Assembly (NCBI GenBank): GCA_001303225.1
Contig: LJNI01000008.1
Span: 1-23,927, forward strand
DNA: 23,927 bases
Reading direction: 5' to 3'
Source of the DNA: a candidate division TA06 bacterium DG_78
Lineage (GTDB): Bacteria; Hydrothermota; Tepidihabitantia; SM23-42
Numbering within the stretch: position 1 is the first letter of the stretch; each line of letters opens with the position of its first letter. The position numbers and the translations under genes were made by a program. Of this stretch, positions 1,137 to 22,979 are shown piece by piece. The notes under the pieces were generated by a model. It had not been told where the DNA came from, did no database searches, and was given only the letters and a program-made list of their open reading frames with translations.

Positions 1137-1189
1137 ATACACTCAGATTGTCTCTTGCTTAAAAGAAACAATAACTTGTACAAAAATGT

Positions 1190-1239
1190 CAGTATGAATC
1201 TACTAACATCCGTTTGCATCAATTTTTGCGGAGCAAAAA
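1190..1239. repeat. H repeat copy A (3' half only) leading into the biotin carboxylase
   Basis: Only the 3' arm is clear, including 'ATCCGTTTGCATCAA'. It is followed by the 7-bp hairpin TTTTTGC (1223-1229), loop GGA, GCAAAAA (1233-1239), and the start codon at 1240 comes directly after the stem. A GGAG Shine-Dalgarno-like stretch lies in the loop and the adjoining base. The stem keeps pairing although its sixth pair differs from the other copies (G-C here). Confidence 0.75.
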
Positions 1240-3337: not shown

Positions 3338-3690
3338 AAATTCTAAGCACGAAATTCTAAACAAATCCTAATGAATAAAATTCAAATTTCTCAAACAGAT
3401 ATTTTGGAATTTAGATATTTGAATTTTAATATTGTTTCGGATTTCTGTCTCACGCCGAGCATTCCGTCTCGTCTCGCGCTTCGTCCCGAGACTCAGCATC
3501 GAGGGAAGACTCGACGTCGAGAGAGACACGAGGCGGATATTCTGCCGAAAATTTCAAAATTTTCAATTTTGTTCAATTTTCAAGTATCCTCGCCTACGGT
3601 ACCTTTGGTGAAAATCTTATCTCATTTCATCGATGCGTATGCATCTTGTAGAAAGAAGATTTTTGGAAGAATTTAGGATTTACTAAGGAT
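3338..3690. repeat. Intergenic region with R2 repeat copy 2, forward 64-bp module and AT-rich tail
   Basis: No convincing gene lies in this 353-bp gap. It starts with 'TAAGCACGAAATTCTAAACA', continues through an AT-rich imperfect inverted repeat ending 'ATTGTTTCGGATTTCTGTC', then carries the GC-rich module at 3463-3526 (same bases as 1035-1098 on the other strand) and the flank 'CACGAGGCGGATATT', also seen at 9768-9782. From about 3540 it holds another AT-rich self-complementary stretch ('GAAAATTTCAAAATTTTC'). The last 40 bases may be remnant coding sequence of the mutase gene (see findings). An open frame from 3371 to 3676 runs through these repeats and is not credible as a gene. Confidence 0.8.
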
Positions 3691-5241
3691 ATGTTATTTT
3701 CTCCTGATGATTTAAAAGATTTTGATTACAAACGAAACCTCGGTGATCCTGGTGAATATCCATTTACTCGAGGTGTCTATTCAACAATGTATACAGGCCG
3801 CCTCTGGACAATACGTCAGTACTCAGGTTACGCTACAGCCGAGGAATCGAACAAGCGGTATAAGTACCTTCTCAAGCAGGGCCAGACTGGGCTCTCAGTA
3901 GCATTTGATTTACCTACACAGATGGGATATGACTCAGATAACCCAATCTCCGATGGTGAAGTCGGTAAAACTGGAGTAGCTATTGATACCCTGCAAGACA
4001 TGGAAACACTCTTCGATGGAATACCACTCGACAAGGTGAGTACGTCAATGACAATCAACGCAACTGCGGCAATTTTATTAGCAATGTATATTGCAATTGC
4101 AGAGAAGCAGGGAGTTGTACTATCAGTTCTTCAGGGCACGATTCAAAATGATATACTCAAAGAGTATATTGCCAGGGGTGCCTACATTTATCCACCAGCA
4201 GCATCCATGAAGCTCACCGTCGATATTATATCGTATTGTAGCACATCTCTGCCCACGTGGAATACAATATCTATCTCTGGCTATCACGTCAGAGAGGCAG
4301 GTGCAACAGCAGCCCAAGAAGTTGCTTTTACTCTGGCAAATGGTATTGCCTATGTAAACGCAGTTATTGAACAAGGAAAACTTGATATTGATGAATTTGC
4401 TCCTCGGCTTTCTTTCTTCTTTAATGCCCATAATAACTTCTTTGAGGAAATTGCAAAATTTCGAGCAGCGAGACGGATATGGGCAAAAATCATGAAAGAG
4501 AAGTTCCACGCGAAAAATCCAAAATCGTGGATGTTGAGATTCCATACGCAGACAGGTGGTTCAACACTCACTGCCCAAGAACCTGAAAATAATGCCATTA
4601 GGGTCGCGCTTCAAGCACTCGCTGCAGTTCTCGGCGGAACACAGAGTCTCCATACCAATTCTCGTGATGAAGCACTTTCTTTACCAACCGAAGATGCAGT
4701 TAAATTGGCACTACGCACGCAACAGATTATTGCTTATGAAAGTAGAATTCCGGAAGTGATAGATCCACTAGGTGGTTCTTATTTTATTGAACACACGACA
4801 AATAAATTAGAAAAAGAAATAAATACATATCTTGACGAAATCGAGACAATGGGCGGTGCATTACAGGCAATCGAGAACGGATATTTTCAAAAACAGATTC
4901 ATCAGAGTGCCTACACATATCAAAAAGCTATAGAGAACAATGAGATTTCTGTCATTGGTGTTAATTCCTTCGTCACCGAGAAAGTACTAACCACACGTGC
5001 AATCCTCAAGGTTGAGCCGAAAGTAGTAAAGATACAAATAGACAGAATAAAAAAAATTAAGGCGAAAAGGAATAACAAAAATGTTAACAGTGCACTAAAT
5101 AATTTACGAGATGCTGCGATTCAAAATTGCAACGTAATGGAACCAATACTCAATTGCGTAAAAGAATATGCTACAGTAGGAGAAATATCAGATATTTTAA
5201 GAAAAGTTTACGGAGAGTATAAGGAGAAATCTCTCTTTTAG
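3691..5241 (+). CDS. Methylmalonyl-CoA mutase, catalytic (large) subunit without the cobalamin-binding domain
   Basis: This 516-residue chain interconverts (R)-methylmalonyl-CoA and succinyl-CoA with adenosylcobalamin. It is the archaeal/thermophile-type catalytic TIM barrel: '[20 protein letters not shown]', '[20 protein letters not shown]', '[11 protein letters not shown]', '[16 protein letters not shown]', '[20 protein letters not shown]'. Residues equivalent to P. shermanii Tyr89, Arg207, Tyr243 and His244 are Tyr44, Arg162, Tyr198 and His199, at matching spacing. That supports methylmalonyl-CoA over isobutyryl- or 2-hydroxyisobutyryl-CoA, whose mutases change the Tyr and Arg. The B12-binding domain is absent and must be a separate subunit, not encoded in this window; nor is a MeaB chaperone. 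The N-terminus looks short for the family, and similarity seems to continue upstream of this ATG, so the start is uncertain. Confidence 0.92.
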
Positions 5242-5336
5242 ATTCAAACAGATGACAGCTGATGCAAACGGATATTTTTATCTGTATGAATCTGCATTAA
5301 TCCGTATGAATCTATTTTTTCGAAGAAAAAAGGAGG
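5241..5336. repeat. H repeat copy B: 34-nt inverted arms, 7-bp hairpin and Shine-Dalgarno
   Basis: The 5' arm (5241-5274) and 3' arm (5279-5312) can pair at 25 of 34 positions around a 4-nt loop. The 5' arm starts on the last base of the mutase stop codon. A second hairpin, TTTTTTC (5315-5321), loop GAA, GAAAAAA (5325-5331), is followed at once by GGAGG (5332-5336), the ribosome-binding site for the gene at 5341. Confidence 0.85.
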
Positions 5337-5340
5337 TTAA

Positions 5341-8385: not shown

Positions 8386-8407
8386 ACTTCATATGTAAGG
8401 AGGAATA

Positions 8408-9574
8408 ATGCATATTGAAACCAATATCGTGCACGGTGGACAGCATCCAGACAAATTACATGGTGCAGTATCGCCTCCGATTTATCAAACCTCAACATTT
8501 GCCTTTCGCGATGCTGATCATGGTGCACGTCTTTTCATGGGCAAAGAAGAAGGTTACATATACACACGACTCAGTAATCCGACTATAGACCTTTTGGCAA
8601 ACAAGATTGCATTGTTGGAGTCTACAGAGGCAGGGTTAATTTTTTCCTCCGGTCTCGCTGCTATCTTTAACGTAGTAGTAACACTTGTGAAATCTGGCGA
8701 ACATGTTATTTCTGATAACACAATTTATGGTGGCACCTTTGCATTGTTCAAGAACATCCTTCCTCGGCTTGGTATCGAAGTAACTTTTATTGATACTACA
8801 GATATTGACCAATTGACATCATCAATCAAAAAAAATACTCGGTTGGTATTTACTGAAACACCAGCAAATCCCACTCTAAAAATTATTGACATAGCAAAAT
8901 GTGCTGAGGTTGTCCATAAAAATAATTTACCACTTTGTGTTGATAATACTTTTGCCACGCCATATTTACAAAGACCAGCTGAATTTGGCTCGGATATCGT
9001 TGTTCATTCGGCGACAAAATACTTGGGAGGCCATGGCGACATAATTGGTGGTGTGGTTGTGGGAAAGAAAGAATTTATTAAAAACCTATGGGAAGACGCC
9101 AAAGAAATCGGCGCATCAAATTCACCCTTCAATGCCTGGCTTATTTTGAGAGGATTAAAGACACTGGCAGTTCGAGTTGAAAAACATTGTGCAAACGCAA
9201 TGGAAATCGCGAAATATCTTTCTAAACATAATAAGGTCGAGCGCGTATATTATCCTGGATTACCATCACATCCAGGACATGAAATAGCAAAAAAACAGAT
9301 GAGTCATTTTGGTGGTATGCTTGCATTTGATGTTAAGGGTGGGAAAGAGGCAGGAAAAGTAATCATGAACTCGGTCAAGTTGTGCATACTCGCCGTGAGT
9401 CTAGGTGATGTTGATACTTTGATTGAACATCCAGCATCCATGACCCACTCTACATATAGTGATGAAGAATTGCGTGAGTGTGGTATAGCACCTGGATTTA
9501 TTAGAATATCAGTTGGCCTTGAAAATGCCAAAGACCTTATTAAAGACTTAGAACAAGCACTATCAAAGATATAA
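8408..9574 (+). CDS. Cys/Met metabolism PLP enzyme, probably methionine gamma-lyase
   Basis: This 388-residue enzyme is a fold-type I PLP protein of the cystathionine gamma-synthase/gamma-lyase group. The Schiff-base lysine is Lys204 in 'VVHSATKYLGGHGDIIGG'; Tyr52 and Arg54 of 'YIYTRLSNPT' should bind the cofactor phosphate of the neighbouring subunit. 'ARLFMGKEEGYIYTR' and 'GAVSPPIYQTSTFAF' are closest in my memory to methionine gamma-lyases, which release methanethiol, ammonia and 2-oxobutyrate. The Cys116 that marks Pseudomonas-type enzymes is Gly109 here, so O-acetylhomoserine sulfhydrylase or cystathionine gamma-lyase cannot be excluded. AAGGAGG at 8397-8403 supports the start. Position between epimerase and acyl-CoA genes fits supply of 2-oxobutyrate for propionyl-CoA. 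Confidence 0.8.
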   Translation: MHIETNIVHGGQHPDKLHGAVSPPIYQTSTFAFRDADHGARLFMGKEEGYIYTRLSNPTIDLLANKIALLESTEAGLIFSSGLAAIFNVVVTLVKSGEHVISDNTIYGGTFALFKNILPRLGIEVTFIDTTDIDQLTSSIKKNTRLVFTETPANPTLKIIDIAKCAEVVHKNNLPLCVDNTFATPYLQRPAEFGSDIVVHSATKYLGGHGDIIGGVVVGKKEFIKNLWEDAKEIGASNSPFNAWLILRGLKTLAVRVEKHCANAMEIAKYLSKHNKVERVYYPGLPSHPGHEIAKKQMSHFGGMLAFDVKGGKEAGKVIMNSVKLCILAVSLGDVDTLIEHPASMTHSTYSDEELRECGIAPGFIRISVGLENAKDLIKDLEQALSKI

Positions 9575-9791
9575 ATCCGAAGCACGAAATACGAAACTCT
9601 AAACAAATCCTAAATCCAAATGACCAAAATTCTAAAACTTTGTTTGAAAAATTTGAATTTTGATATTCGATATTGTTTCGGATTTCTGTCTCACGCCGAG
9701 TGTTCCATCTCGTCTCGCGCTTCGTCCCAAGATGCAGCATCGAGGGAAGACTCGACGTCGAGAGAAACACGAGGCGGATATTAGTATTTCG
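9575..9791. repeat. R2 repeat copy 3 with forward 64-bp module
   Basis: The repeat begins right after the stop codon with 'TCCGAAGCACGAAATACGAA' and has an AT-rich imperfect inverted repeat reaching 'ATTGTTTCGGATTTCTGTC'. The GC-rich module lies at 9704-9767 and differs from the 3463-3526 copy at about 5 of 64 positions. It ends in the shared flank 'CACGAGGCGGATATT'. The arrangement is collinear with copy 2 over roughly 200 bp. No gene is seen here. Confidence 0.85.
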
Positions 9792-9815
9792 AATTTCCTT
9801 TAAAAAGGGGGTGAC

Positions 9816-10862: not shown

Positions 10863-10871
10863 GAGGCGAAT

Positions 10872-12031: not shown

Positions 12032-12126
12032 GATTCAGCCGGATAATTGCAGATGCATACGGATACATTATCTGTTTGAATCCAGATCAATCCGTTTGCA
12101 TCAATTTTTCCGAAGGAAAAAGGAGG
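12032..12126. repeat. H repeat copy C: 34-nt inverted arms, 7-bp hairpin and Shine-Dalgarno
   Basis: Arms 12032-12065 and 12069-12102 pair at 22 of 34 positions with a 3-nt loop. Two bases later comes hairpin TTTTTCC (12105-12111), loop GAA, GGAAAAA (12115-12121), followed directly by GGAGG (12122-12126). The element splits the thiolase from its DUF35 partner. Confidence 0.85.
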
Positions 12127-12131
12127 TATGA

Positions 12132-14222: not shown

Positions 14223-15212
14223 ATGAAAAAATGTATATGTCTTTTTATTGTATCTATCATCTTTTTACGCGTAAATTCCCATGCCCAGATTACTTTTGAG
14301 AAAAGCTACGGTGGACTAGCCGACGACATAGGTTACTCTGTCCAGCAGACTCAGGACACGGGCTATGTCGTCGCGGGATGGACCGCTTCCGGCTGGTTGT
14401 GGCAGGTCTACGTCATCAAAACCGACTCCCTTGGGGATACACTCTGGACCAGATCCTATGGTTGGGTGGGTGATGATCGTGGTTACTCTGTCCAGCAGAC
14501 TCAGGAAGGGGGTTACATCGTCGCGGGATTCAAATATTGTTGGCCGACCAGCTCCGACGCCTACCTCATCAAAACTGATTCTCTTGGAGATTCCCTCTGG
14601 ACCAGGACCTACGGAGGGATGGGCGGGGATTATGGTTTCTCCGTTCAGCAGACTCAGGAAGGGGGCTACATCGTCGCGGGAGGGACCAATTCTTTCGAAG
14701 ACGGCTTCCAGGTCTACCTCAAAAAGACTGATTCCCTTGGATATACCCTCTGGACCAGGACCTATGGAGGGGTGGGCGCCGATTGGGGCATGTCTGTCCA
14801 GCAGACTCAAGACAGGGGCTACATCGTCGCGGGAACCTATAATTATAGCGGGTCTAGCCAGGTCTACCTCATCAAAACTGACCAGAATGGAAATGTAGCG
14901 GTCGCTGAGGGTTCTTCAACTGAGTTGCCAAAACCTCTGTTATTACAGAATTATCCCAACCCCTTTAATTTGACCACGACTATCCTCTTCAACATTCCCA
15001 CTGCAGTGGTCGGGCGTGTCAACTTAGCCATTCATGATATATGTGGTCGGCATATCAAAACCCTGATTGATTCTGAACTCGACCCAGGCATTCACCAGAT
15101 AGAGTGGGACAGAAACGACGACAAAGGTGCGTTTGTGTCATCCGGGATCTATTTTTGTATGCTGTGGAATGGTGGCAAGATACATACACAAAAGATAATG
15201 GTTATCAGATAG
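14223..15212 (+). CDS. Secreted repeat protein with FlgD/T9SS-like C-terminal domain
   Basis: The 329-residue product starts with a signal peptide ('MKKCICLFIVSIIFLRVNSH', cleavage likely after the Ala of SHAQ). Residues 28-225 or so hold four copies of a roughly 50-residue unit of the form 'GYSVQQTQxxGYxVAG' followed by 'YLIKTDSLGDTLWTRTYGG', as in beta-propeller-like or 'delta-60' repeats. The last 90 residues begin 'LLLQNYPNPFN' and run through 'HDICGRHIKTL' and 'SSGIYFCML', an Ig-like FlgD/Por-type tail used for export or surface attachment in FCB-like phyla. The repeats are nearly identical at DNA level and GC-rich compared with the neighbours. No metabolic link to the operon is evident. 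Confidence 0.82.
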   Translation: MKKCICLFIVSIIFLRVNSHAQITFEKSYGGLADDIGYSVQQTQDTGYVVAGWTASGWLWQVYVIKTDSLGDTLWTRSYGWVGDDRGYSVQQTQEGGYIVAGFKYCWPTSSDAYLIKTDSLGDSLWTRTYGGMGGDYGFSVQQTQEGGYIVAGGTNSFEDGFQVYLKKTDSLGYTLWTRTYGGVGADWGMSVQQTQDRGYIVAGTYNYSGSSQVYLIKTDQNGNVAVAEGSSTELPKPLLLQNYPNPFNLTTTILFNIPTAVVGRVNLAIHDICGRHIKTLIDSELDPGIHQIEWDRNDDKGAFVSSGIYFCMLWNGGKIHTQKIMVIR

Positions 15213-15224
15213 AACCTTTAGCTA

Positions 15225-15278
15225 AATCCGTGTCAATCTGCTTAAATCTGTTTGAATCAATTTTTCCGGAGGAAAAAA
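15225..15278. repeat. H repeat copy D (3' half only) leading into the cupin gene
   Basis: The 3' arm at 15225-15258 has no clear 5' partner. It is followed by hairpin TTTTTCC (15261-15267), loop GGA, GGAAAAA (15271-15277), and ATG at 15279. The Shine-Dalgarno GGAGG lies in the loop and descending stem, so folding would hide it. Confidence 0.75.
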
Positions 15279-15605
15279 ATGGCAAAGATAAGTTTGAAGG
15301 AATTAATAAATAAAACAAAGGAACCATGGCAACCTATGGATGTTGCTTATATAAATGAGACCGCCCTCAGAATTGCTAAGATTGAAGGTGCATATCACTG
15401 GCATACCCACCGAGATGAGGATGAATTTTTTCTAGTCCTCAAGGGGAAGATATATATTGACACCGACGAAGGCTCGGTGGAACTCAAAGAAAATGATGGT
15501 TATCTTGTCAAAAAAGGAACGAGACATCGTTCGCGCGCAGATAAATCTGCATGGATACTCTTGGTCGAACCGATAAAGACAAAGACGAAAGGAGAAGAAA
15601 CTTAA
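15279..15605 (+). CDS. Small cupin-domain protein
   Basis: This 108-residue protein is a single cupin barrel. Motif 1 is 'YHWHTHRDEDEFFLVLKGKI', giving HxHxxxE-type metal ligands; motif 2 is 'GYLVKKGTRHRSRADK' with the last His ligand. A TTG 27 bases upstream is in frame, but it lies before the ribosome-binding site and would translate the repeat, so ATG 15279 is chosen. The substrate is unknown: proteins of this size include sugar isomerases, dioxygenases and regulators. It lies between mccB and the LiuC-type hydratase, but nothing visible ties it to leucine breakdown. Confidence 0.85.
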   Translation: MAKISLKELINKTKEPWQPMDVAYINETALRIAKIEGAYHWHTHRDEDEFFLVLKGKIYIDTDEGSVELKENDGYLVKKGTRHRSRADKSAWILLVEPIKTKTKGEET

Positions 15606-15743
15606 TGTCAAATACCAAAGTCCAAATGTCAAATCAATATCAAAATTCAAATATCAAATTTGGCATTGGTCATTTGGATTTCATCCACGCCCATCACAGA
15701 TGAGCGGGATTCATTGGGCATTTTAATTTGAATTTTGACATTA
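15603..15743. repeat. R3 inverted repeat (TGTCAAAT-rich)
   Basis: TAATGTCAAA (15603-15612) and TTTGACATTA (15734-15743) are perfect inverse copies, and TCCAAATG (15621-15628) is the inverse of CATTTGGA (15671-15678). The interior is made of degenerate AAATxTCAAA pieces plus a 35-bp GC-richer insert ('CACGCCCATCACAGATGAGC'). The left end overlaps the cupin stop codon. It is unrelated in sequence to the H and R2 repeats and fills the gap before the hydratase gene. Confidence 0.7.
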
Positions 15744-15764: not shown

Positions 15765-16568
15765 ATGTTAAAAGATAAACCAAAAACATTAATCTATGAA
15801 GTCAAAAATAATACTGCGCACGTGACATTAAACCGTCCAGAAGTTCATAATGCGTTCAATGATACAATGATTAACGAAGTGAGTACGGTATTTGATGATA
15901 TTGAGAAGCGTTCAGATATTAGAGTTGTTGTCCTGACCGGTGAAGGAAAATCATTCTGCGCAGGAGCTGATTTAAACTGGATGAAGAGGGTAAAGGATTA
16001 TTCCTACGAAGAAAACCTAAAAGAATCCCTTGACCTTGCCGAAATGCTCTACAAAATCTATGCCTCATCAAAACCTACCATTGCCAGAGTAAATGGAACA
16101 GCAATTGGTGGTGGAACTGGTCTTGTCGCAGTTTGCGACATTGCGATTGCGGCATCAAATGCAAAATTCAGCTTCAGCGAAGTAAAACTTGGACTAATTC
16201 CAGCTTGTATATCGCCTTATGTTGTCAAAAAGTGTGGTGAAGGTCGATGTCGAGAATTTTTCTTGACCGGCAAAAGATTGACTGCAGATAAAGCATGTGC
16301 TGCTGGTCTTATAAATCAAGTTGTGCCTCTGGAAGAAATTGATAAGGTTATCGAGGAATTAGTTACCCAGTTGATTTCGAGCGGTCCTGCGGCAATAAAA
16401 AAATGCAAAGAACTATTGAGGAGAGTACCTGAAATGTCATTGGAGGAGGCAAAAAAATATACTGCTGAAGTCATTGCACAGTTGCGGATATCGGATGAAG
16501 GTCAGGAAGGAATGAATTCGTTTTTAGAAAAGCGACGACCAAAGTGGTCGGAAGATTCAAACGGATAA
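15765..16568 (+). CDS. liuC: Enoyl-CoA hydratase family protein, LiuC-type 3-methylglutaconyl-CoA hydratase
   Basis: This 267-residue crotonase-fold enzyme most likely hydrates 3-methylglutaconyl-CoA to HMG-CoA. Family-specific stretches are 'CAGADLNWMKRVKDY', 'SSKPTIARVNGTAIGGG', 'LVAVCDIAIAASNAKFSFSE' and 'VKLGLIPACISPYVV', with the C-terminal 'FLEKRRPKW'. The oxyanion-hole glycines are in 'GGGTGL'. The first of the two crotonase catalytic glutamates is replaced by Gly, as I recall for LiuC-type proteins, while the second (FSFSEVK) is kept. A GAAGGA lies 9 bp before the ATG. The last five codons and the stop (EDSNG plus TAA) lie in the left arm of an H repeat, so the repeat now supplies the protein's C-terminus. 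Confidence 0.88.
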   Translation: MLKDKPKTLIYEVKNNTAHVTLNRPEVHNAFNDTMINEVSTVFDDIEKRSDIRVVVLTGEGKSFCAGADLNWMKRVKDYSYEENLKESLDLAEMLYKIYASSKPTIARVNGTAIGGGTGLVAVCDIAIAASNAKFSFSEVKLGLIPACISPYVVKKCGEGRCREFFLTGKRLTADKACAAGLINQVVPLEEIDKVIEELVTQLISSGPAAIKKCKELLRRVPEMSLEEAKKYTAEVIAQLRISDEGQEGMNSFLEKRRPKWSEDSNG

Positions 16569-17010
16569 TAGCGGATGCAAACGAATAGGCTGTTGCATAG
16601 AGAACTAACATACAAGATTATTGGAACATTTTACAAGGTTCATAAGAATCTTGGTTGCGGATTTACAGAAAAGATTTATCAACGAGCCATAGAAATAGAG
16701 TTCAAAAAAGAAAATATCCCGTATGAGATTGAAAAAGAATTTGAAGTTAATTATAATGGCAAAAAATAGGTCGTTTTCGACTAGATCTGGTAATTGATAA
16801 TAAAGTGATTGTTGAGTTGAAAGCAGTTGAAAGACTTCCTAAAGTATTCCGCGAGCAATTAATTTCGCAGTTAAAAGCATCCCCGTATGAAGTCGGCTTA
16901 TTAGTTAATTTTGGCGCTCCGAAATTACAATACATTCGCTTAGCGCGAACTAAATCAGTATGAATTTGTCTTTTTACATCCGTATGAATCTGCTTCAATC
17001 TGTCTGAATC
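16554..17010. mobile_element. H repeat copy E: arms flanking a GxxExxY nuclease gene
   Basis: The left arm (16554-16587) and right arm (16977-17010) match in inverse orientation at 24 of 34 positions and align with the arms of copies B, C, F and G, whose loops are only 3-4 nt. Here the loop is about 390 bp and holds one open-frame remnant. The left arm overlaps the end of liuC, and the right arm is followed 11 bp later by the biotin carboxylase start. The 7-bp hairpin/Shine-Dalgarno end found in other copies is missing. Confidence 0.7.
16575..16963 (+). pseudogene. GxxExxY protein (PD-(D/E)XK nuclease-like), frameshifted
   Basis: The reading frame starts in the left repeat arm and gives 'LLHRELTYKIIGTFYKVHKN' and 'GCGFTEKIYQRAIEIEF', the GxxExxY signature (G-F-T-E-K-I-Y). 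It stops at TAG 16767-16769, after a run of six A. Adding one A restores a continuous product: 'IGRFRLDLVIDNKVIVELKA' and on to 'LLVNFGAPKLQYIRLARTK', ending at TGA 16961-16963. The second half carries the D...ExK nuclease core (D in RLDLVI, ELK). The intact product would be about 129 residues, normal for the family. Loss of one base, slippage on the A-run, or an assembly error are all possible. No ribosome-binding site is evident. Confidence 0.85.
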
Positions 17011-17021
17011 ATAAGATTTTT

Positions 17022-18521
17022 ATGCTTTTCAAAAAAATCTTAATCGCTAATCGGGGCGAAATTGCTATCCGTGTTGCCCGCTCCTGCCGGGAACTCGGTA
17101 TATCGACAGTTGGTGTCTATTCTACAGTAGATAAAGAATCGCTACATCTTCGCTACGTAGATGAGGCTGTATGTATTGGTGAAGCAACGCCTCTGGCGAG
17201 TTATCTTAATATGGGTGCTATCATTAATGCCGCAAAAAAGACGAAAGCAGAAGCGATTCATCCAGGTTATGGTTTCCTTGCTGAGAATTCTCAATTTGCA
17301 AAAGATTGTGAAGATGCTGGCATAATTTTTATTGGCCCCAGTTCCAAGGCGTTGGCACTTGTTGGTGATAAGGTGGCATCACGTAATACAGTTAAACATA
17401 TCGGAGTGCCAATTATTCCAGGTATGGAAGCGTCGAGTACCACCATGCAGAGTTTCAAGAAAATGGCACAGCAGGTGGGCTACCCGGTTATTGTAAAAGC
17501 ATCGATGGGTGGTGGTGGCAAAGGTATGAGAATCGTACAGAGCGAAAAAGAACTCGAGGCGAGTGTTGCAGTTGGTCAGCGAGAAGCAAAGAGTGCGTTT
17601 GGAGATGAAACTGTTTATCTCGAAAAATATATTGAAAAACCTCGACACATTGAATTTCAGGTCTTACGGGACACCTTCGGTAATGTGGTTCACCTCTACG
17701 AGCGTGAATGTTCAATTCAACGTCGACATCAAAAAATTATCGAAGAAACCCCCTCCCCCATTCTAGACGCAGATCTACGCCATAAGATGGGTGAAGCAGC
17801 AAAACAGGTAATCGCAGCAGCAGAATATACTAATGCAGGAACAGTAGAATTCTTGCTCGATGCAGATAAGAATTTTTATTTTCTGGAAGTGAACGCCCGT
17901 GTTCAGGTCGAACACCCGATAACCGAGATGGTAATTGGTACTGATTTGGTTCGTTGGCAGATTATGATTGCCTCAGGCGAAAAGATAAATTGTAAACAGG
18001 ATCAAATAAAGCAACGTGGGCACGCAATAGAATCAAGGATATATGCTGAGGATCCAGAAAATAACTTTATGCCATCGCCAGGACATATCCTATTTTTGCT
18101 CGAACCGAGTGGCCCAGGTATACGGGTCGATTCAGGTATATATCAAGGATGTAATATCCCACCACATTATGATCCTATTTTATCAAAATTGATTGTCTGG
18201 GCAGAAACAAGAGACATGGCAATATCGCGTATGTCCCATGCTTTAAAGAATTATGTCATTTTAGGAATAAAGAATAATATAGAATTTTTGAAACACATTA
18301 TGTATACAAAAAAATTTATTGATGGTGATTATAATACGCATTTCATCGATAATAATGAAATGGATTTATTGCGACAAAAAAAAGAAATAAATATCGCCCT
18401 GATAGCTGCTGCATTACGTGATGTAGAAACAAAAAGCATACGTAGTGAACCCACAGGACAAACAAAAAGCGAAACGAGTCCCTGGCAAGAACTTGGGAAA
18501 TGGGAGATATGCCAACACTAG
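17022..18521 (+). CDS. Biotin carboxylase subunit of the second acyl-CoA carboxylase (MCC alpha, split)
   Basis: This 499-residue biotin carboxylase parallels the one at 1240 with clear divergence. It shows 'FKKILIANRGEIAIRVARSC', ATP-grasp loop '[13 protein letters not shown]', '[20 protein letters not shown]' and catalytic 'EVNARVQVEHPITEM', then 'IESRIYAEDPENNFMPSPG'. Position downstream of mccB and the LiuC-type hydratase makes it the likely alpha-side partner of 3-methylcrotonyl-CoA carboxylase. The usual MCC alpha is a fused biotin carboxylase-BT-carrier chain; here the carrier is a separate gene 163 bp downstream. The ATG at 17022 has no good Shine-Dalgarno, because the arm of the inserted element ends only 11 bp upstream; the start is chosen by family alignment. 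Confidence 0.92.
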   Translation: MLFKKILIANRGEIAIRVARSCRELGISTVGVYSTVDKESLHLRYVDEAVCIGEATPLASYLNMGAIINAAKKTKAEAIHPGYGFLAENSQFAKDCEDAGIIFIGPSSKALALVGDKVASRNTVKHIGVPIIPGMEASSTTMQSFKKMAQQVGYPVIVKASMGGGGKGMRIVQSEKELEASVAVGQREAKSAFGDETVYLEKYIEKPRHIEFQVLRDTFGNVVHLYERECSIQRRHQKIIEETPSPILDADLRHKMGEAAKQVIAAAEYTNAGTVEFLLDADKNFYFLEVNARVQVEHPITEMVIGTDLVRWQIMIASGEKINCKQDQIKQRGHAIESRIYAEDPENNFMPSPGHILFLLEPSGPGIRVDSGIYQGCNIPPHYDPILSKLIVWAETRDMAISRMSHALKNYVILGIKNNIEFLKHIMYTKKFIDGDYNTHFIDNNEMDLLRQKKEINIALIAAALRDVETKSIRSEPTGQTKSETSPWQELGKWEICQH

Positions 18522-18684
18522 TAAAAATCCGAAGCACGAAACAATATCTCCCGAAAATCATCGAGATGAAAATGAGATTAGATTTTCGTGGATGCTCGAA
18601 AAATTATCAAAATCGAAGATTTTGGATTTTTCGGCAAAATGTTCAAAATTCGAAACGCTTCAGTCATAGGATTTAATCTACGGT
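18522..18684. repeat. Intergenic R2 fragment and AT-rich inverted sequence
   Basis: 'ATCCGAAGCACGAAACAATA' at 18527-18546 joins what look like the two ends of an R2 repeat with the middle missing. The rest has short self-complementary pieces such as CGAAAATC (18553-18560) against GATTTTCG. There is no gene and only a weak ribosome-binding site before 18685. Confidence 0.5.
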
Positions 18685-20660: not shown

Positions 20661-21440
20661 ATGGCTTATAAAAATATCATAGTCGAACTTATGGAAAAAA
20701 TGGGAATGGTAAAGATTAATCGTCCGGATGTTCTCAATGCAGTCAATATAGAAACTATACTCGAAATAGAAAAAGCAATCCATGAGTTCAACGAAAACAA
20801 AAATATTATGGTAATTATTATAACCGGAGAGGGTAAGTCTTTTGTATCAGGGTCAGATATTTCAAAGCTCATTGAGATGGATCCTCTCCAAGCGAGAGAA
20901 TACAGTCAGATTGGCCAACGTGTTCTCTCGTTTATAGAAAATATGGAAAAACCCGTCATCGCTGCAATTAATGGCTATGCTCTTGGCTCTGGGTGCGAAC
21001 TCGCTATGGCGTGTGATATCCGTATTGCCTCTGAAAAGGCTAAATTTGGACAACCCGAAGTAAAATTAGGACTCATTCCAGGACATGCTGGTACCCAACG
21101 TCTGGCAAGGATTGTGGGAATAGGCAAGGCAAAAGAATTGATCTTTACGGGAGGTATAATCGACGCCAATGAGGCATATCGAATCGGGCTCGTAAATAGT
21201 GTAGCTAAGCCTGAGGCGTTACTTGAAGAAACAAAAGCAGTTGCTCAGAAGATTATTGAGGTAGGACCAACCGCAGTACGTCTTGCAAAGACTGTTATTA
21301 ACCGCGGTATTGACACTAATCTCACCACGGCAAATTCGTATGAAACTGAGGCCTTCAGTATATTGTTTGCTACTGATGAAGCAAAAGAAGGAATGAAAGC
21401 ATTCCTTGAAAAACGTAAACCAAATTGGGTTTTAGATTGA
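20661..21440 (+). CDS. Enoyl-CoA hydratase (crotonase)
   Basis: This 259-residue protein hydrates short-chain trans-2-enoyl-CoA to 3-hydroxyacyl-CoA. Both catalytic glutamates of the classical enzyme are present: the one in 'LGSGCELAMACDIRIA' and the one in 'FGQPEVKLGLIPG'. 'GSDISKL' and 'GTQRLARIVG' are family marks. The start is the ATG at 20661, four bases after AGGAGGT; longer in-frame extensions would translate the ribosome-binding site. The 3-hydroxyacyl-CoA dehydrogenase and thiolase downstream complete a beta-oxidation set, so crotonyl-CoA or tiglyl-CoA (isoleucine) are likely substrates. The last sense codon and stop (GAT TGA) are part of an H repeat arm. Confidence 0.92.
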   Translation: MAYKNIIVELMEKMGMVKINRPDVLNAVNIETILEIEKAIHEFNENKNIMVIIITGEGKSFVSGSDISKLIEMDPLQAREYSQIGQRVLSFIENMEKPVIAAINGYALGSGCELAMACDIRIASEKAKFGQPEVKLGLIPGHAGTQRLARIVGIGKAKELIFTGGIIDANEAYRIGLVNSVAKPEALLEETKAVAQKIIEVGPTAVRLAKTVINRGIDTNLTTANSYETEAFSILFATDEAKEGMKAFLEKRKPNWVLD

Positions 21441-21529
21441 GACGGATTCGAGCAGATGCATACAGATACCACATCCGTCTGACTCCGCTTTCATCTGTTT
21501 GCATAAATTTTTTCCTTGAAAAAAGGAGG
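21435..21529. repeat. H repeat copy F: 34-nt inverted arms, 7-bp hairpin and Shine-Dalgarno
   Basis: Arms 21435-21468 and 21472-21505 pair at 20 of 34 positions with a 3-nt loop. The hairpin is TTTTTTC (21508-21514), loop CTT, GAAAAAA (21518-21524), followed directly by GGAGG (21525-21529). The left arm includes the last codon and stop of the crotonase gene. Confidence 0.8.
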
Positions 21530-21533
21530 TTTA

Positions 21534-22883: not shown

Positions 22884-22979
22884 GATTCAGACAGATATTA
22901 GCGGATGCATACGGATAAAAAATTCGTTTAAATCTGCGCAAATCCGTTTGTATCTATTTTTCCATAAGGAAAAAAGGAG
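22884..22979. repeat. H repeat copy G: 34-nt inverted arms, 7-bp hairpin and Shine-Dalgarno
   Basis: Arms 22884-22917 and 22921-22954 pair at 22 of 34 positions with a 3-nt loop. The hairpin is TTTTTCC (22957-22963), loop ATAA, GGAAAAA (22968-22974), followed by AGGAG and, six bases later, the thiolase ATG at 22985. Confidence 0.85.

Follow-up and report, generated by a model that had tools for sequence, protein, structure and literature searches.

The stretch analysed here (the window, 23,927 nt) is the entire contig C25 of the draft genome of candidate division TA06 bacterium DG_78 (G000; 2.09 Mb in 173 contigs, 79.5% complete), and its feature of interest, copy E (16554–17010, 457 nt), carries a gene of the GxxExxY family between two inverted arms. 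Copy E is probably a decayed small mobile element of the form arm, GxxExxY nuclease gene, inverted arm, and the solitary hairpins (solos) scattered through the window are probably its cargo-free form, resembling miniature inverted-repeat transposable elements (MITEs); the same grade of confidence covers the mechanism proposed below.

Copy E lies between an enoyl-CoA hydratase open reading frame (ORF; 15765–16568) and a biotin carboxylase ORF (17022–18521). The left arm (16554–16586, plus strand) consists of three units of about 10 bp, GATTCAAACG, GATAATAGCG and GATGCAAACG, followed by AAT, and overlaps both the end of the hydratase ORF (stop codon 16566–16568) and the start of the GxxExxY frame, whose ATG at 16575 falls within the arm, as a preliminary description of this DNA had noted. 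The right arm (16978–17010, plus strand) reads ATCCGTATGA, ATCTGCTTCA, ATCTGTCTGA and ATC. The arms are separated by 391 bp, close to the 390 bp with a single gene first estimated, and pair at 23 of 33 positions. Their pairing score was matched in 29 of 5000 shuffles, so that the pairing of copy E itself is only modest evidence, and a repeat search of the window at default settings did not list copy E. Both arms are members of the repeat family dispersed through the window, in agreement with the homology to the solos proposed earlier: the pattern ATCYGTNTGAATCN7ATCYGT, with up to two mismatches, gave 25 matches in the G000 genome and none when reversed, and 13 of the 25 fall in this contig. 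This 24-kb contig, rich in arm matches, carries genes of acyl-CoA metabolism.

The gene between the arms (16575–16963) is disrupted by a one-nucleotide frameshift. Its 5′ part (16575–16769, plus strand) runs from the ATG to a TAG at 16767–16769 and scores 59.1 bits against TIGR04256 and 57.8 bits against PF13366 (PDDEXK_3). The 3′ part (16757–16963, plus strand) follows in the neighbouring frame to a TGA at 16961–16963, scores 63.9 and 58 bits, respectively, and holds the D...ExK and QxxxY residues. Both parts exceed the curated cut-offs (35 bits for TIGR04256 and 22 for PF13366), and these were the only families found between the arms; no HuH transposase, transposase family or TIGR02436 match was found there. 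The family named in the preliminary description is thereby confirmed, while the frameshift had been overlooked. Since the frame is broken, copy E cannot itself be an active parent, the role once suggested for it; it is probably dead as it stands and is most aptly described as a decayed relative of that element. Intact GxxExxY copies with arms of the copy E type are present in related genomes, and the second GxxExxY gene of G000 (contig C69) has an open frame and its own arms, built of a different unit, GATTACRGTGAT.

Arms of this kind are found at GxxExxY genes well beyond the window. An inverted-repeat (IR) flank score was compared at two cut-offs, at least 40 and at least 30, in 80 loci from named GTDB contigs (the best 80 of 118 from one query; 79 usable, with one lost to a short flank) and in 30 loci fetched from 141 genomes of the phylum of G000 (27 usable). 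Mis-paired flanks, 513 ORFs of the same loci and 30 PIN-domain genes from the same 141 genomes served as controls, the mis-paired null taking no account of kinship among loci. A score of at least 40 was reached by 47 of the 79 named loci (1.8 expected; 7 of 513 control ORFs), and a score of at least 30 by 63 (6.8 expected; 60 of 513), the expectations being those for mis-paired flanks. Within the phylum, 12 of 27 GxxExxY loci and 0 of 30 PIN-domain genes scored at least 40, with 22 of 27 against 3 of 30 at the lower cut-off. GxxExxY flanks are therefore inverted repeats elsewhere too, as had been anticipated. Coding sequence raises the score in GC-rich genomes (L079, L200, L201, L204 and L177); these loci were judged on their gap sequence instead, and the arms of L204 were not readable. 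By record titles, the armed loci come from more than a dozen phylum-level groups, including Planctomycetota, Bacteroidetes, Acidobacteria, Chloroflexi, Verrucomicrobia, Omnitrophota and Proteobacteria.

One could suppose that terminator or attenuator hairpins flank a nuclease gene by chance, as part of ordinary regulation, given that the hairpins are intergenic and often stand right before start codons. The control ORFs and PIN-domain genes seldom or never score as high, however, and arm-gene-arm blocks turn up repeatedly, as whole units, at loci unrelated to one another; together, these controls and this recurrence rule out regulation as a full account, and we find it scarcely credible.

The recurrence was seen by comparing 40 GxxExxY loci from multi-copy genomes, with matches longer than 150 bp considered. 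Single genomes carry two to four element copies of about 430–620 bp that are 78–94% identical and sit in unrelated surroundings: three close copies in G130 (89–91% identity over 426–449 bp), three in G012 (90–92%, 428–458 bp), four in G137 (78–87%, 446–517 bp) and, in G133, the pairs L429/L430 (91% over 465 bp), L430/L438 (96% over 351 bp) and L427/L428 (94% over 621 bp). Homology mostly stops within about 20 nt of the outer arm ends (for example GGACGCAGAT...ATCTGCGTCC), where the flanks shown are unrelated; an exception is L421/L422, in which it continues leftwards for about another 70 nt. The pairs L422/L426 and L425/L445 (G137/G136) have conserved flanks (96–97%) and represent one shared insertion, that is, an inherited one. 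For some fetched loci (e.g. L420 and L435), the comparison of the 40 gave no match longer than 150 bp, and inspection by eye, without a formal search, found no clear target-site duplication at the ends of multi-copy elements. Taken as sequence comparisons, these data indicate that arm, gene and arm move as one unit, of which the solos are a MITE-like form. One GxxExxY copy, L432 (G012), has a small TCTAACGGGG palindrome seemingly inserted in its left arm; a stretch similar to it stands at the outer left end of L434, L421 and L422.

Related genomes also differ in what a given gap contains. At site A, the gap of copy E (21 loci inspected), G000 has the cargo, and G071 has at this very point a solo hairpin whose left arm (CGGAAGATTCAAACRGAT) is closely similar; arm units are present in G082, G086 and G076. 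The gap after the hydratase gene is 4 nt in G301, 21 nt in G084 and 33 nt in G069, and the remaining loci hold other sequence. Because the orthologous gap of G071 holds one solo built of both arms, copy E is one hairpin with a gene in its loop and not two adjacent solos that happen to flank a gene. No full element is present in L361 (G072) and L369 (G074), but the last codons of the hydratase gene resemble arms there (AAATTCAGACGGATGA and GGATTCAGAAAGATGA) and are possible footprints. At site B, the gap before the cupin gene (window position 15279), a GxxExxY end with right-arm units was found in 4 of 23 genomes (G087, G076, G068 and G086), with both arms and the upstream carboxyltransferase gene seen in the first three. 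G084 has a relic at this site, G071 a solo, and G000 a single arm behind another gene (right-type, 15226–15258, plus strand, upstream of the cupin gene); 16 nt separate carboxyltransferase and cupin in G299, and other genomes hold different sequence. At site C, G071 and G080 carry GxxExxY with CACTGAA-type arms between orthologous genes, and the window has an empty gap of 9 bp (10863–10871). A further gap, site D (8386–8407, 22 bp), is without an element in the window and has arm units in G078 (L326). Sites with and without cargo, as the preliminary description envisaged, thus exist between related genomes at A, B and C; these data fit both an entry of cargo into solos and its loss from them. 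Among phage records, the L001 protein had no tblastn match at E ≤ 1e-5. Eight plasmid records match the L079 protein, each under 60% identity, and so offer no near-identical pair for a strain-level comparison of empty sites.

In two distant groups, the gap between hydratase and biotin carboxylase genes is a hot spot for insertions. Of 149 genomes from the Luteimonas lumbrici family, 10 have GxxExxY, and six of the ten genes occupy this gap, one of them with an extra gene between; GxxExxY thus prefers the gap there too. Arms in this family vary by locus, and left and right match where readable, for example GCCACGGATGCACACGGATGAACACGGAT in L199 and GCCACAGATTTCACAGATTCCACAGATG in L201. Of the 30 closest Luteimonas-family loci, seven have the gap closed or 58 bp long, four have GxxExxY in it and five (L211, L214, L220, L221 and L226) have another insert there, with CCCTCCCCTTGAAGGGGAGGG arms. 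In two of these five (G182 and G173), a DUF559 search puts a PF04480 match just before biotin carboxylase, and the other three look alike.

The arms of GxxExxY elements are degenerate tandem units, for example CACAGAG, CGCAGAT, ACAGGAT and CACGGAT. In 72 arms of 110 elements, self-match is strongest at lags 9 and 10 (z 10.4 and 9.7). Arms at genes of TIGR02436, a four-helix family that we take to be S23p, peak at lag 7 (z 20; 23 arms of 30 own-phylum loci). Arm similarity tracks protein similarity (Mantel r 0.46; null maximum 0.10 in 5000 permutations), also when only pairs between phyla are used (r 0.376 over 2230 pairs; null maximum 0.11 of 3000), with phylum labels that we assigned from record titles and the own-phylum loci taken as one group. 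The direction of the units relative to the gene is kept, 1766 pairs being more alike in the same direction against 574 in reverse.

Four solos were located in the window, with three 10-bp units in each arm: 5241–5312 (6-nt loop; orthologous solo in G077, L313), 12032–12102 (5-nt loop; arm units at the same place in G076, L299), 21435–21505 (5-nt loop; weak pairing, score 20) and 22884–22954 (5-nt loop; weak pairing, score 22). The loops of 5–6 nt correct the 3–4 nt given previously. The 5 nt preceding the left arms are TTTTA, AAGCG, TTTTA and ATGCG. A right-type single arm also stands at 1188–1220 (plus strand), and G079 (L321) has a single arm at the corresponding position. A stricter unit pattern, CRGATN5CRGATN5CRGAT, gave 613 matches in 54 of the 141 related genomes and none when reversed. 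GxxExxY matches were found in 78 of the 141 genomes, comprising 34 of the 36 with at least three pattern matches and 44 of the 105 others. For full-length GxxExxY (best E below 1e-26, a cut that we set), the counts were 31 of 36 against 20 of 105 (within-GTDB-family permutation p 0.0003). Solo number therefore follows GxxExxY presence, in keeping with the idea that the flanking arms match dispersed solos. Thirteen genomes with full-length GxxExxY have no CRGAT-pattern match and may carry arms of a different type. Solos are often accompanied on their 3′ side by a small second hairpin that runs into the ribosome-binding site (5313–5340, 12103–12130, 21506–21530 and beside further solos of the genome); judged by eye and uncounted, its stems vary and its loops are often CG-N-AG (TTTTTCCGAAGGAAAAA and GATGCGTAGCATC).

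Residues G19, E22, D61, E71, K73, Q86 and Y90 of GxxExxY are kept in 98–100% of 110 sequences. A structure model of the L001 protein, rather than of the broken copy E, has a predicted local distance difference test (pLDDT) score of 96.6, and its best fold matches are SSO0001 and other PD-(D/E)XK nucleases. Profile scores, conserved residues and this model agree with the original assignment of GxxExxY (PDDEXK_3) to the PD-(D/E)XK nucleases, and the modelled fold is predicted to be most like that of a Cas4/RecB-type nuclease. We infer that GxxExxY itself moves the element. In the mechanism that we propose, the arms would form a hairpin in single-stranded DNA, either on the lagging strand or as a cruciform, and the Cas4/RecB-like nuclease would recognise its own arm units and cut close to the hairpin loop or foot. 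Host break repair or end joining could then copy the cargo into a solo, at its hairpin loop, or transfer a hairpin to another intergenic site. Solos would be mobilised in trans and then decay free of constraint.

Several observations weigh against this account. Sixteen of the 79 named loci score below 30, and two genomes with unit matches, G078 (16) and G081 (6), have no GxxExxY match. All 36 genomes with at least three units carry TIGR02436, and solo counts correlate equally with GxxExxY and with the four-helix family (Spearman 0.68 each), so that a third factor could drive both. Co-inheritance of the whole block would also yield the correlation between arms and proteins, which is thus no proof of recognition; the family-specific unit period is harder to explain in that way. 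A sequence-profile search of the PDB returned no match at E ≤ 10, the likeness to Cas4 being one of fold only. Finally, 10 orthologous solo pairs (13 were aligned; these 10 were counted in both directions and three single-arm pairs left out) have no excess of compensatory change and instead decay: of Watson-Crick pairs hit once, 48 were broken and 17 kept as G-T, and of those hit twice, four were kept and nine broken. There is accordingly no sign that the hairpin matters after insertion, and we do not claim a conserved RNA structure.

Some of these points would be expected if an unlinked factor, such as a transposase, RecT-like annealing or replication slippage, moved the arms, with GxxExxY and four-helix genes being small passengers or defence genes caught between them. 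The equal correlation of solo numbers with two unrelated gene families, the solo units of G078 and an arm architecture common to GxxExxY, TIGR02436 and DUF559 all speak for such a mover. A shared outside mover would not, however, predict a unit period tied to the gene family (9–10 bp against 7 bp), and the arms differ by protein clade, even across phyla. On balance, we think passenger genes unlikely. The autonomous and non-autonomous pair proposed in the preliminary description is supported by the arms, the solos and the site polymorphism, but it is not exclusive, as G078 and G081 show, and GxxExxY is its putative mover.

The positions of the solos bear on a further alternative, since those of the window sit in short intergenic gaps within runs of same-direction genes. 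The arms might act at the RNA level, forming a double-stranded stem that RNase III excises, so that insertion is harmless and mobility rare and accidental. Intervening sequences (IVSs) of 23S rRNA provide the precedent: as described in PMC4990558, they are sporadic, measure about 430 nt, have complementary ends and a single small ORF, replace a hairpin tetraloop and are excised from the RNA by RNase III. The same source has the IVS ORF proposed as a mobility component and, in Coxiella, tandem 7-nt repeats ahead of the S23p ORF. Against excision at the RNA level, pairing is freely lost in orthologous solos, a search of the window against Rfam gave nothing at E ≤ 1, and spread in several copies with unrelated flanks requires a step at the DNA level; we judge this explanation quite improbable.

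GxxExxY is not the only family with such arms. TIGR02436 loci of the same phylum (L139–L168) have inverted arms of 7-bp units, scoring at least 40 in 14 of 30 against 0.62 expected, with up to 30 copies per genome. At DUF559 (PF04480) loci of the Luteimonas family, 18 of 29 scored at least 40 (one of 30 was dropped) against 6.0 expected from mis-paired flanks, a weak control here because the arms of different DUF559 loci are alike. DUF559 genes (L211, L214, L220, L221, L226 and L330–L359) are often bounded by arms such as CCCTCTCCC..GGGAGAGGG, and the C-terminus of the protein often extends into the right arm (...LTPTPLPVGEG). The 7-nt repeats of the Coxiella IVS fit the 7-bp units of TIGR02436 arms, which suggests two sister classes. 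A wider possibility, put forward tentatively and with more doubt than confidence, is that GxxExxY elements, four-helix elements (including 23S rRNA IVSs) and perhaps DUF559 elements form one unrecognised, pan-bacterial class of transposase-free mobile DNA. In such a class, a tiny protein would read arms of a protein-specific unit period (9–10 bp or 7 bp), hairpin loops would be targeted, and a large share of the short intergenic repeats that lack an explanation in uncultured bacteria would be solos.

Other dispersed intergenic repeats of the window (AAATCCGAAGCACGAAAT...) lie at 1017–1135, 3338–3600, 9573–9800, 15605–15690 and 18525–18640. In 4 of 8 stretches tested, this repeat set has a lag-7 z of 3 or more, and the repeats are possibly solo forms of the four-helix type. 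A window ORF at 14223–15212 contains four repeats of about 51 codons (14306–14845; 150–153-bp period).

GxxExxY is a common orphan family in genomes of uncultured bacteria. To place it as the sole gene of a mobile element assigns it a role that can be tested, accounts for a class of scattered hairpins and sets the old problem of the 23S rRNA IVSs within a broader family. If true, this placement describes a mobile element whose sole enzyme is a minimal Cas4/RecB-like nuclease, which bears on the origin of mobility systems. Searches of open PMC texts, without subscription journals and bioRxiv, found no published description of the GxxExxY arm arrangement, no text naming PDDEXK_3 and none on DUF559 with an inverted repeat; GxxExxY is named in two of 5.39 million papers, in the excerpts returned once as the label of a gene that another program called cas4 and once in a gene table. 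As far as these searches go, the mobility, the site polymorphism, the family-tied unit period and the link to the four-helix family are new.

Among known systems, pairs of MITEs and insertion sequences have inverted ends, short cargo-free forms, multiple copies, and occupied and empty sites, and GxxExxY elements share all of these. They differ in that the arms enclose no transposase gene, no target-site duplication is evident to the eye, and the ends are made of degenerate tandem units that vary by clade. Homing nuclease genes likewise combine a single nuclease gene with occupied and cargo-free versions of one site, and a cargo-free cognate allele exists here (the solo of G071 against the cargo of G000), but no intron or intein is present at the GxxExxY element. 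Rpn/transposase_31 proteins have a PD-(D/E)XK fold; their Pfam family, PF04754, is a different one from PF13366 of GxxExxY. These proteins are reported to be tied to RecA-independent horizontal transfer (PMC5350276).

Repetitive extragenic palindromes (REPs) and their TnpA-REP (RAYT) enzymes (REPtrons), as described in PMC8266576, combine an HuH enzyme, a GTAG foot and short GTAG-tagged palindromes. As there, the gene of copy E is flanked by repeats that are also dispersed, free of cargo, between genes, with an autonomous and non-autonomous pair proposed; the copy E family is without the HuH enzyme and GTAG foot, and its arms are about 33 nt of tandem units. The 23S rRNA IVS is the closest parallel. 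Copy E also has complementary ends and one small ORF, in 457 nt overall against the 430 nt or so reported for IVSs, its kind of element is likewise sporadic in distribution, and TIGR02436 loci of its own phylum have inverted arms of 7-bp units, comparable to the heptamers beside the IVS ORF in that source. Unlike an IVS, copy E lies outside rRNA genes, encodes a PD-(D/E)XK nuclease and not a four-helix bundle, and belongs to a family with 9–10-bp units and many solo hairpins. We would file the element under neither the IVS nor the REP/RAYT family.
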